Assembly: GCA_963971535.1 (NCBI GenBank) | Contig: OZ020585.1 | Location: forward strand, 161,342,226-161,406,225 | Direction: 5' to 3' | Source: Notolepis coatsorum | Taxonomy: Eukaryota; Chordata; Actinopteri; Aulopiformes; Paralepididae | DNA length: 64,000 bases | Shown here: positions 38,593 to 48,355 of the stretch, piece by piece | How the letters are laid out: every line of letters begins with the position of its first letter | How positions within the stretch are numbered: the first letter of the stretch is position 1 | Made by a program: the position numbers and the translations under genes | The notes under the pieces: generated by a model | Told to the model about the DNA's origin: nothing | Database searches by the model: none | What the model saw: the letters and a program-made list of their open reading frames with translations, nothing else

Positions 38593-40101
38593 GTCGTGGC
38601 TTCCTTCCATTGTCAATCAATCAATCAGTCTTTCCATCAAGCCACTAGACGCTTTAAACAGACAGTTCTAACTCGTTTCTTTCCTTAGATTACTCACAGT
38701 TCGAAATGTTGCTTGGCCTCCGATGGTTTCGATGATGTTGCGATGTGTTTGCTCAAAATAAAGTACCAAACATTTGCACATGCAACAAAGAAAATAGGCC
38801 TTTACAATATTCAAAAGAAAATATGCAAAACTCAAAGAAAATAACAAACAACTTAGGTATTCTTTCTTTCTTGGTAAAGCTTATATAACTTTACAACTTA
38901 AAGGGTATTTGTACAAGTTGTATGTACATATAATACGAAAAGGTACGTTATGAAAAGGTAGGAAAAAGTCTGAAACGATATGAAACGGTTAAAAACTGTT
39001 TCCCGATCGCGTTTCTCAACAGGTTGCCTTCATTGCGGCTTTAGCGCAAGGCGCTGTGGGATTTGTAGTCCTTTGTAGTGCGTTGACTACAGACGTCACA
39101 ATTAACACTTTGATCGCCATGGGTTAAATTCATAATTTACCATCCCTCGCCAGCTCTATTTGTCTATGGAGAAGTTCCCCTTCTTTGCAGGGCTATAACT
39201 TTTTAAATTCTATTGCTAAATTGCCATTATTATGGCCCATTCAATGTCCTATATGTATTGTTCAGGGTGTAGCAACGTTAAACTTTTTCATTCACATATT
39301 CATACTAAAATATGGTCTAAAGTATAAGTATGTTTTTATCGTTTTCTGCAGCTTTCTCCAGAACTTGATTTATAGCTCCAAATGCATTATATTGATGATG
39401 AAATACAGTTTGATAGCAATCGGCGCGAGATAAAAAATTTCAACTGGACGTGGTTCTAGAAGTTACTACGTGTCATCTGATGATGACTGGATGGGCGGGG
39501 GATCGTTTATAATTCCGTGGGCAGCGTTAGATGATTCATCCAGAGTGGGTCATATGTTCATCATAGCAGTTTATATGGAACACGTTAGAATATAACGCTG
39601 AATCTTACCGTGGCTTCCTCGCGCCGCTGGCAGATGAGCGTGGAACAGAATTTTTTCTATTATGGGATGGAGAAATGCCCGATCCATTTCCAGGTTGTAT
39701 AATAGTATATACGTCCAAATCATGTTGTTTTTTTCGAGTTATTTGCACCGATCGATGTTCACTGTGTCAAACCGGAGTCTCTCTAACGATAGTGAGTGCC
39801 CGGACCACATATGGATGAGCACTTCCGGTTCAAAGGCTCATTTCCGGTTGGCGATCTGCCGATCGGCCACCAGATGGCGCTCTTGAACCGCTAGAGAGTT
39901 GAGTGGAGCTTTGCAGTGTGTCTCAGGGCTCCGGAGGGGAAATATGATTTCGGTCACAGATTTTTGAAATATTGACATCAAAGACGAGTTACGGCATCTT
40001 CGGCAGAATGAGCATGGCTAGGAATGACGTCTTAACTCGTCATCGGCGATCATAGTGTTAAGTGGCTTTTCTTATAAAAAATCTAAATACTGGCTCTAAC
40101 A
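38593..40101 (-). repeat. BEL 5' LTR with MITE insertion
   Basis: Equivalent to 31074-31632 after removal of the 952-bp insert and its extra TTAA. The first base of the LTR edge is missing at the gypsy junction. Followed by target duplication GTCGG (40102-40106) and the minisatellite. Confidence 0.9.
39106..40057. mobile_element. TTAA-inserting MITE (piggyBac-like)
   Basis: 952 bp flanked by TTAA on both sides (39102-39105, 40058-40061). Ends are inverted: cactttgatcgcc and, as reverse complement, cactatgatcgcc (12 of 13 match). The sister BEL LTR has a single TTAA at this point (attaagtgg near 31587), proving the insertion. No transposase frame. TTAA duplication is characteristic of piggyBac elements; the family name is inferred from target site and size. 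Confidence 0.88.
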
Positions 40102-40884
40102 GTCGGTGTGCAGGGTGGGAGGGGGGTAAACAGTCTGTGTGCAGGGTGGGAGGGGGGTAAACAGTCTGTCTGCAGGGTGGGAGGGGGGTAAACAGTCCGT
40201 GTGCAGGGTGGGAGGGGGGTAAACAGTCTGTGTGCAGGGTGGGGGGGGGGGGGTAAACAGTCTGTGTGCAGGGTGGGAGGGGGGTAAACAGTCTGTGTGC
40301 AGGGTGGGAGGGGGGTAAACAGTCCGTGTGCAGGGTGGGAGGGGGGTAAACAGTCTGTGTGCAGGGTGGGAGGGGGGTAAACAGTCCGTGTGCAGGGTGG
40401 GAGGGGGGTAAACAGTCTGTGTGCAGGGTAGGAGGGGGTAAACAGTCCGTGTGCAGGGTGGGAGGGGGGTAAACAGTCTGTGTGCAGGGTGGGAGGGGGG
40501 TAAACAGTCTGTCTGCAGGGTGGGAGGGGGGTAAACAGTCCGTGTGCAGGGTGGGAGGGGGGTAAACAGTCTGTGTGCAGGGTGGGAGGGGGGTAAACAG
40601 TCTGTGTGCAGGGTGGGAGGGGGGTAAACAGTCCGTGTGCAGGGTGGGAGGGGGGTAAACAGTCTGTGTGCAGGGTAGGAGGGGGTAAACAGTCCGTGTG
40701 CAGGGTGGGAGGGGGGTAAACAGTCTGTGTGCAGGGTGGGAGGGGGGTAAACAGTCTGTCTGCAGGGTGGGAGGGGGGTAAACAGTCCGTGTGCAGGGTG
40801 GGAGGGGGGTAAACAGTCTGTGTGCAGGGTGGGAGGGGGGTAAACAGTCTGTGTGCAGGGTGGGAGGGGGGTAAACAGTCCGTG
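40102..40884. repeat. 31-bp minisatellite, left block
   Basis: 26 units of gggtgggaggggggtaaaca plus gtctgtgtgca, with variant positions c-g-g, c-t-g, c-c-g and gtctg. The variant order of the first 20 units is the same as in the right block at 47479. The minus-strand proline-rich frames are artefacts. Together with the adjacent LTR end (from about 40076) this block forms the long duplication flanking the L1/Tx1 element. Confidence 0.97.
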
Positions 40885-41036
40885 TTTAGCGCAATATGTA
40901 GTGCACGCATTTGGCAACAGCTCCGCTCCCATCAACGTTAATTTCGTTTAAAAACATTATTTGGACAATACCAAAAGAGATTAGACCACATCGTATGTAT
41001 TGATAAGACCTTCTACTAACTATATCAAAAGACAAC

Positions 41037-46300: not shown

Positions 46301-47130
46301 AGGGGATATTTTTAATAACCAGGGCTTCTGTAGTTATGGAGAAATATGCACAAAGTTTAACCTCACCGAGTCCACATGGCTTTTTTTACATACAGTTACG
46401 CCTATGTTTGAGGTCTCACGGTGTTCCATTACACATACCAGTTGAACACCACAGATACCACAAATTTTTCTATGAAAGAGAAACATTGGGAGGTTTTGTT
46501 TCAGGTTTTTATTATCAATTACTAACATCCTCGTATGAAACCCTTCAACTAGACACTGTCTGGAGGAGGGATATTCCAGACCTGGAAAGTGACTTTGATT
46601 GGCAAGAAGCATGGGCAAATGTCCGTCTTACATCAAGGAACCCGGACCATCAACAAATCAATCTTAACTATATTCACAGGACATACTTGACTCCTATAAG
46701 ACTGAACAGAATGGGCCTGAAACAAGACTCAAAATGCACCCAATGTACAAATGGAGACGAAGGGACATTTATGCACATGTATTGGGACTGCCCACCAGTT
46801 AAGGCATTCTGGAAAGATGTGACCCATCAATTATCAAAACTCGTATCTTGGAATATACCAGTACACCCCTCTGTATTGCTTTTAAATGATGTTTTTGAGT
46901 TTGCAGTAAATCCACAGCTAAAGAGATTGGTCTTATCGGGTATCACAGTAGCTAAAAAACTGATCGCATCACGCTGGTTTCAACCGGAAAAAATTTGCCG
47001 GAAAGTTTGGTCTCTTACATATCTCGATGTGATATATCAAGAAATATCTACAGCAAGAATTCTGGGTCTCAACGAATCCAAAATGTCAATGTGGGTAGAA
47101 GTGGTGGAGAGAATAAAAGCTAGCTTATAA
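43365..47130 (+). pseudogene. L1/Tx1 ORF2 (element 1): endonuclease and reverse transcriptase, two lesions
   Basis: ATG 43365 to TAA at about 47128. A TAA at 43605-43607 replaces the GAA seen in element 2. A one-base shift near the T-run at 46381-46387 moves the last 245 codons to another frame. The endonuclease has IMIWNTGGINKQHKRK, LLSETHIL, AVYAPNLYEV, GADFNAIWNP and LSDHCYLIL. The reverse transcriptase has SYRPLSLLGTDVKLYSK, LSLDAMKAFDRLEWSFLW, SARQGCPLSPGLFDLSLEPL and LYADDVILFMQ. The C-terminus has a cysteine/histidine motif (CTQCTNGDEGTFMHMYWDC). These fit the L1/Tx1 group rather than the jockey group. Confidence 0.94.
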
Positions 47131-47478
47131 TGGTGGTGTCTGTTAGGAGTGAGGGATAATGGAGGTACTATCCAAGGAGGGGTCCGGGAGGGGGGGGTTC
47201 GAGCTGGAGCATATGTGTGTAGGGTTTTAGAAAATAGGTATTAGGGGTATGTTCTATATAAACATTTATATAATTGTAATTTCGCTGGATATACACTGTA
47301 TACGGTTAAAATGTTATTATAGACTTTTTTTTATCTTGTTTCTGTACTTGCATGTAATTTTAATCACCTTGACTGTTAGTTTCATTATGCATTATGTGTT
47401 GAGTACTGACTTTTAATAATTTTTGTTTTGCAATAATAAAAAAAAAAAAAAAAAAAAAATCTAAATACTGGCTCTAAC

Positions 47479-48355
47479 AGTCGGTGTGCAGGGTGGGAGG
47501 GGGTAAACAGTCTGTGTGCAGGGTGGGAGGGGGGTAAACAGTCTGTCTGCAGGGTGAGAGGGGGGTAAACAGTCCGTGTGCAGGGTGGGAGGGGGGTAAA
47601 CAGTCTGTGTGCAGGGTGGGGGGTAAACAGTCTGTGTGCAGGGTGGGAGGGGGGTAAACAGTCTGTGTGCAGGGTGGGAGGGGGGTAAACAGTCCGTGTG
47701 CAGGGTGGGAGGGGGGTAAACAGTCTGTGTGCAGGGTGGGAGGGGGGTAAACAGTCCGTGTGCAGGGTGGGAGGGGGGTAAACAGTCTGTGTGCAGGGTG
47801 GGAGGGGGTAAACAGTCCGTGTGCAGGGTGGGAGGGGGGTAAACAGTCTGTGTGCAGGGTGGGAGGGGGGTAAACAGTCTGTCTGCAGGGTGGGAGGGGG
47901 GTAAACAGTCCGTGTGCAGGGTGGGAGGGGGGTAAACAGTCTGTGTGCAGGGTGGGAGGGGGTAAACAGTCTGTGTGCAGGGTGGGAGGGGGGTAAACAG
48001 TCCGTGTGCAGGGTGGGAGGGGGGTAAACAGTCTGTGTGCATGGTGAGAGGGGGGTAAACAGTCCGTGTGCAGGGTGGAAGGGGGGTAAACAGTCCGTGT
48101 GCAGGGTGGGAGGGGGGTAAACAGTCTGTGTGCAGGGTGGGAGGGGGGTAAACAGTCTGTGTGCAGGGTGGGAGGGGGGTAACCAGTCCGTGTGCAGGGT
48201 GGGAGGGGGGTAAACAGTCCGTGTGCAGGGTGGGAGGGGGGTAAACAGTCTGTGTGCAGGGTGGGAGGGGGGTAAACAGTCTGTGTGCAGGGTGGGAGGG
48301 GGGTAAACAGTCCGTGTGCAGGGTGGGAGGTAAACAGTCCGTGTGCAGGGTGGGT
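47479..48355. repeat. 31-bp minisatellite, right block
   Basis: 29 units. Units 1-20 follow the same variant order as the left block, including unit 5, which in both blocks has lost the A inside its G-run. After unit 20 the blocks diverge. The block is preceded by the last bases of the BEL LTR (tctaaatactggctctaaca) directly after the poly(A) tail, showing it is a duplicate of 40076-40884. Confidence 0.97.

Follow-up and report, generated by a model that had tools for sequence, protein, structure and literature searches.

How does an L1 retrotransposon come to lie between two copies of one sequence, each hundreds of base pairs long? The question is raised by a stretch of 64,000 nucleotides (the window) from the fish Notolepis coatsorum (assembly GCA_963971535.1, contig OZ020585.1, positions 161,342,226 to 161,406,225), the contig measuring 214 Mb and the genome 3.42 Gb. 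The sequence present on both sides of the L1, which belongs to the retrotransposons without long terminal repeats (LTRs), is made up of the outer 20 bp of the LTR of a BEL/Pao element and an array of a 31-bp G-rich minisatellite. Very probably, a single target-primed insertion of the L1 made a target-site duplication (TSD) of about 0.56–0.81 kb. All positions given below are those of the window unless a contig is named, and the features are collected in Table 1.

Two copies of one sequence

The left block comprises an A-run (40076–40081), the LTR tail (40082–40101) and the array (40100–40884), which counts 26 units, the last of them cut short. In the right block the LTR tail (47460–47479) starts directly after the poly(A) end of the L1 at 47459 and leads into an array of 29 units (47478–48354). 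An earlier note on this DNA, made from the letters alone, had described both the poly(A) end followed by LTR end and minisatellite and the same combination to the left of the element at 40076–40884, with coordinates that prove right to within a few bases.

Classified by unit type, units 1–20 agree between the left and the right block. A matching prefix of at least 20 units appeared in none of 200,000 shuffles of the unit types of the right array and in 2 of 200,000 first-order Markov chains, generated by a model trained on these same two arrays. Aligning the two blocks, which the earlier note had proposed as a check, reveals 2 substitutions among 569 aligned sites, together with 9 gap columns, over the LTR tail and units 1–18; all the gap columns fall in the G runs of units 1, 5 and 16, and 13 of the 18 units are identical. 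Unit 5 is without its A in both blocks, as had been pointed out, though the length of its G run differs between them. Left units 2–18 carry 2 substitutions in the true register and 15–21 at offsets of +1 to +10. The left copy corresponds to the leading part of the right array, and the two blocks are one sequence duplicated. The claim that the first 20 units share one order of variants is thus borne out by unit type, and beyond unit 18 it does not hold letter for letter.

What lies past unit 18 on the left is a repetition of the left array itself. Left units 19–25 are letter-for-letter copies of left units 11–17, left unit 26, which is cut short, belongs to the same type as unit 18, and a TAGG variant is common to left units 11 and 19 and absent from right unit 11. 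Because left units 19–26 copy left units 11–18, left units 19 and 20 agree with the right block by type only. On the simplest reading, an 8-unit (247 bp) copy inside the left block brought the duplication from ~562 to 809 bp. The original duplication probably measured ~562 bp (~0.56 kb), the left array then ending in unit 18, and its counterpart in the right block would run from 47460 to ~48007; if the right block, not the left, was the one altered, the original length may have been up to 809 bp.

The L1, its ends and its target

Membership of the L1 group is indicated by an open reading frame 2 (ORF2) whose APE-type endonuclease and reverse transcriptase are closest to L1 ORF2p, by an upstream ORF1, by a 3′ poly(A) and by a T-rich nick site. 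The narrower label Tx1 is that of the earlier note. The 920-amino-acid open part of ORF2 aligns with residues 114–910 of human LINE-1 ORF2p (E 4.1e-117), the best R2 match of the same part being E 7.4e-19, and ORF2 contains an RVT_1 match (2.4e-35). In ORF1 no Pfam family, recognised L1 ORF1 families included, was found above the cut-off. The short TSD of 7–20 bp, which is usual for the group and not defining, is replaced here by a duplication of 809 bp now and an inferred ~562 bp at the outset. ORF2 has a stop at codon 81, is open from 43683 to 46445 and has its C-terminal part (46336–47130) in another frame; with ORF2 broken in this way, the near full-length window copy is no longer expected to supply the protein for its own movement. 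A second L1, 87% identical to the first from approximately the start of ORF2, is found at 60538–64000, where the match reaches the end of the window; the sequence upstream of it is unrelated, and apart from the ORF1 of the main element no ORF1 match was found in the window.

A whole-genome search for copies of the family returned 1761 candidates, of which 40 were scored. In 38 of these, the window copy included, the match starts at query base 1, which is position 40885. Most of the 29 relatives with a printed 5′ flank extend only 8–11 bp further, ending in (G)ACTTCCGG, after which the flanks differ; the window L1 lacks only the outermost 8–9 bp of the usual 5′ end of its family. At both ends the L1 appears to retain the termini of its primary integration, and since the 5′ end falls within 9 bp of the usual start in a 6.6-kb element, a later rearrangement would rarely be its cause.

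At the start of the left block the bottom strand reads TTTTTT/ATAAG, previously recognised as a nick site of L1 type. This assignment gains support from a 5′-truncated L1 of a related subfamily (L081, at G000:C13:102428800-102431300), which is inserted at this very nick site in a different BEL LTR and is flanked there by a TSD of 11–17 bp, AAAAAATCTAAATACTG. Since the same site elsewhere gave a TSD of normal length, the length in the window would need another explanation, which could lie in the sequence downstream or in the cell's state. L1s have targeted this LTR edge more than once: of its 25 exact occurrences in the genome, two have a poly(A) before them at this position, the one in the window and the one on C13.

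Long duplications are not a habit of the family. A 5′ flank is available for 29 relatives, a 3′ stretch was taken for 21 and both ends were located in 11; L010, L011, L013, L014, L018, L021, L022, L023, L029 and L031 stand outside the count, their 3′ end lying beyond the stretch or being unrecognisable. All 11 copies have TSDs of ~7–16 bp, judged by eye, with one mismatch in L024, an imperfect duplication (~7–10 bp) in L028 and a run into the A tract in L036. These short TSDs rule out a family habit and agree with the earlier observation that the length in the window is far beyond the usual range. A full-length family member (L017/L046, on G000:C3368) was a candidate for a second long TSD and was rejected: it is inserted in a minisatellite of 60-bp units, its TSD is an ordinary 14 bp and its flanking repeats have no preferred register (91–96% throughout).

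The element that received the L1 is assigned to BEL/Pao by a Pao peptidase, an integrase, LTRs with TG...CA ends and a 5-bp TSD. Its LTRs occupy 31073–31632 and 38593–40101, the latter split by a 950-bp insert, and are 97.3% identical over 517 columns; its minus-strand domains are Peptidase_A17 (4.2e-27), DUF5641 (5.2e-27) and Integrase_H2C2 (1.5e-10), the match to the integrase core (rve) falling below the cut-off. As BEL lies on the minus strand, the LTR end next to the array belongs to its own 5′ LTR and forms the outer edge of it. This edge, at 40101, is followed by GTCGG. Array units and GTCGG are found on both sides of BEL, which therefore landed in the array and duplicated 5 bp of it; because BEL sits inside the array, the array is not part of the L1. 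Judged by this nesting, the minisatellite array is older than both BEL and the L1. The array could also be thought to consist of monomers of the 5′ untranslated region of the L1, an idea ruled out by the units beyond the far side of BEL and by the relatives, in 29 of 29 of which the array was not seen in the last 45 bases of the printed 5′ flank.

Within BEL, the ~950 bp that split the LTR (39106–40055) resemble, by eye, a sequence preceding the LTR edge in L005. A Gypsy-type integrase with a chromodomain and, by eye, an LTR (36508–38592) is nested in BEL and adjoins its LTR at 38593. Elsewhere in the genome the 31-bp minisatellite is dispersed, exact 30-mers occurring in arrays on C27, C30 and C1758, all with other flanks. 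The C1758 array was considered as an empty allele and rejected, since its 85% match to window positions 30886–31031 lies ~1 kb from the array, which makes it a paralogue at best.

Table 1. Positions and strands of the L1, the flanking duplication and the surrounding elements
Feature	Position	Strand	Remarks
L1-type non-LTR retrotransposon	40885..47459 (start approximate)	+	ends in poly(A); ORF1 open, ORF2 broken
ORF1, 393 amino acids	41037..42218	+	open
ORF2 region, broken	43365..47130	+	part of endonuclease, reverse transcriptase
Left copy of the long TSD	40076..40884	+	A-run, last 20 bp of LTR, 25.3 array units
Right copy of the duplication	47460..48354	+	last 20 bp of LTR and ~28.7 array units
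Inferred first (bottom-strand) nick, TTTTTT/ATAAG	40075..40076	-	from sequence; same site independently occupied in L081
BEL/Pao LTR retrotransposon with nested chromodomain Gypsy-type element	31073..40101	-	domains and LTR pair; edges by eye
31-bp array remnant across BEL	31031..31072	+	one and a third units, ending GTCGG, left half of BEL TSD
Dispersed arrays elsewhere	G000:C27:17297335, C30:30385717, C1758:4714		exact 30-mers

One insertion or several events

Target-primed insertion with a very long TSD is supported as the simplest account of this locus, because the L1 termini are close to primary, the nick site was reused with a normal TSD, units 1–18 are nearly identical in the two blocks and the ages match. 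As to the ages, 5 substitutions among 1845 sites in the 5′ part of the window L1 are private to it, which sets an upper limit, and the BEL LTR pair differs by 10 substitutions in 513 sites. From the age of the L1, up to ~3.1 substitutions are expected between the flanking copies, and 2 are observed; a duplication as old as BEL would be expected to show 11.1, the probability of 2 or fewer being 0.001. By these figures the duplication appears to be of about the same age as the L1 and younger than BEL.

In this account the first nick, TTTTTT/ATAAG on the bottom strand of the BEL LTR, would be the work of the L1 endonuclease; priming there by the poly(A) tail would have been followed by reverse transcription nearly to the 5′ end of the RNA. 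The 5′ end of the L1 would then have been joined to a top-strand end in array unit 18 (or 26), ~0.56 kb past the first nick, bypassing the usual alternative of a top-strand break some 15 bp away, and the filling in of the staggered ends would have duplicated the LTR edge and the array. Later, slippage or unequal exchange of 8 units may have lengthened the left copy by its 247 bp, while changes in G-run length accumulated. The far end may well derive from a repair or replication break in the array, which is prone to G-quadruplexes: for two units the predicted energy is -22.7 kcal/mol on the top strand and -2.3 kcal/mol on the bottom strand (calculated without a shuffled control). Such predicted top-strand structures make the array a plausible source of the distant top-strand end in this one case. 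The earlier note had envisaged target-primed insertion with a second nick ~800 bp away; the insertion with a long TSD stands, and its length is revised, probably to ~0.56 kb.

Several observations weigh against this reading. The length of the duplication is far outside the norm of the family, short in 11 of 11 relatives. Past unit 18 the arrays no longer agree letter for letter, and an extra duplication on the left is needed. When all 25 whole left units are compared, the true register gives 12 substitutions (0.48 per unit), only slightly better than an offset of -8 with 9 substitutions over 17 units (0.53 per unit), the remaining 23 offsets from -12 to +12 giving 0.64–1.29 per unit; the good fit at -8 is due to the 8-unit copy within the left block. 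An empty allele was not found in this assembly among the 25 exact LTR-edge sites and the contigs with arrays, and the dating rests on two substitutions, which are small numbers.

A variant of the single insertion, not exclusive of it, would dispense with the distant nick: the left target end may have invaded the sister chromatid or the homologue, copied ~0.56 kb and joined the finished end of the cDNA. The resulting sequence would be the same, and the joining unit, AGTCCGTG, bears a weak likeness to the L1 start, ACTTCCGG, that could have aided annealing. The likeness is short, however, and was noticed after the fact, and no feature separates copying from a distant second break, so that by sequence the two cannot be told apart. 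Within the confidence placed in the single insertion, copying is possible and takes the clearly smaller share.

The locus might instead have been built in two steps: the LTR edge and array would first have been duplicated in tandem, and the L1 would then have entered the second of the two edges at its nick site, deleting what remained of the first array as far as the nick. Tandem duplication is common in minisatellites, as the 8-unit copy in the left array illustrates, and target-site truncations are a recognised class of LINE insertions (PMC4245944, PMC2666801). However, this history requires two events to coincide at one site, the copies seem to match the L1 in age and to be younger than BEL, and only the two window sites among the 25 exact LTR edges lead into the array, although diverged edges escape the search pattern. 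The two-step history is improbable, and the earlier judgement that a tandem duplication is the less economical alternative is upheld.

Still less credible is a history in which the L1 entered the LTR with a short TSD and gene conversion then carried the LTR edge and array from right to left. Arrays are generally known to convert and expand often, but the tract would have to stop within 9 bp of the L1 5′ end, and the 60-bp array around L017, with its 14-bp TSD and no register standing out, argues that flanking arrays are not simply homogenised. An assembly artefact placing one array twice is just as hard to credit, since, although repeats this long can mislead assemblers, the copies differ by 2 substitutions, 9 gap columns and the 8-unit copy, and each is anchored in different sequence within a 214-Mb contig.

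Known insertions and the meaning of the locus

The single insertion with a long TSD can be set beside systems described in the literature. Under the standard model, where the second cleavage falls determines the TSD (PMC2666801). Human L1 TSDs have a median of 13 bp (PMC12016303), those of 66 full-length human L1s measure 10–20 bp with two exceptions (PMC4245944), and those of de novo Alu insertions 8–18 nt (PMC12633430). Zebrafish ZfL2-2 in wild-type DT40 cells produced alterations of at most 20 bp in 24 of 25 insertions (PMC2666801). TSDs of more than 20 bp form a separate category, L-TSD, in DT40 and HeLa cells (PMC4245944, PMC2666801); the window insertion fits this definition, the class is uncommon in normal cells in one set, and the accessible parts of these two papers contain no natural case of its length.

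Ordinary L1s of the same family share with the window copy the element, the poly(A) end and the 5′ start, and the related L1 in L081 shares the nick site; they differ in their TSDs, ~7–16 bp in 11 of 11 family copies and 11–17 bp in L081. Closer in length are L1 insertions in human cells deficient in nucleotide excision repair, with TSDs from 5 bp to 5.3 kb and a median of 1495 bp, compared with 2 bp to 1.6 kb and a median of 14 bp in XPD-complemented cells (PMC5223499). In HeLa cells TSDs of more than 100 bp never exceeded 10% of events, and the authors suggest that ends arising in replication or repair may serve for large TSDs (PMC5223499). Like the window L1, these insertions mostly carry A tails and have TSDs of hundreds to thousands of bases. 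They differ in being engineered L1s in cultured human cells, whereas the window holds a natural insertion whose far end lies in a G-rich minisatellite.

The window insertion is a natural example of the large-TSD L1 insertions known from cultured human cells. A natural germ-line L1 TSD of this length was not found among titles and the openings of abstracts, a coverage from which subscription journals mostly fall out, and a search of PMC10584689 by term gave no match. A wider proposition, conceivable yet doubtful, is that G-quadruplex-prone minisatellites give nearby LINE insertions distant top-strand ends through stalled forks or repair nicks, so that the integration of LINEs would duplicate whole arrays in the germ line and seed new copies. 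The locus provides two copies of a minisatellite that would have been identical at one time point and are useful for measuring how arrays change.

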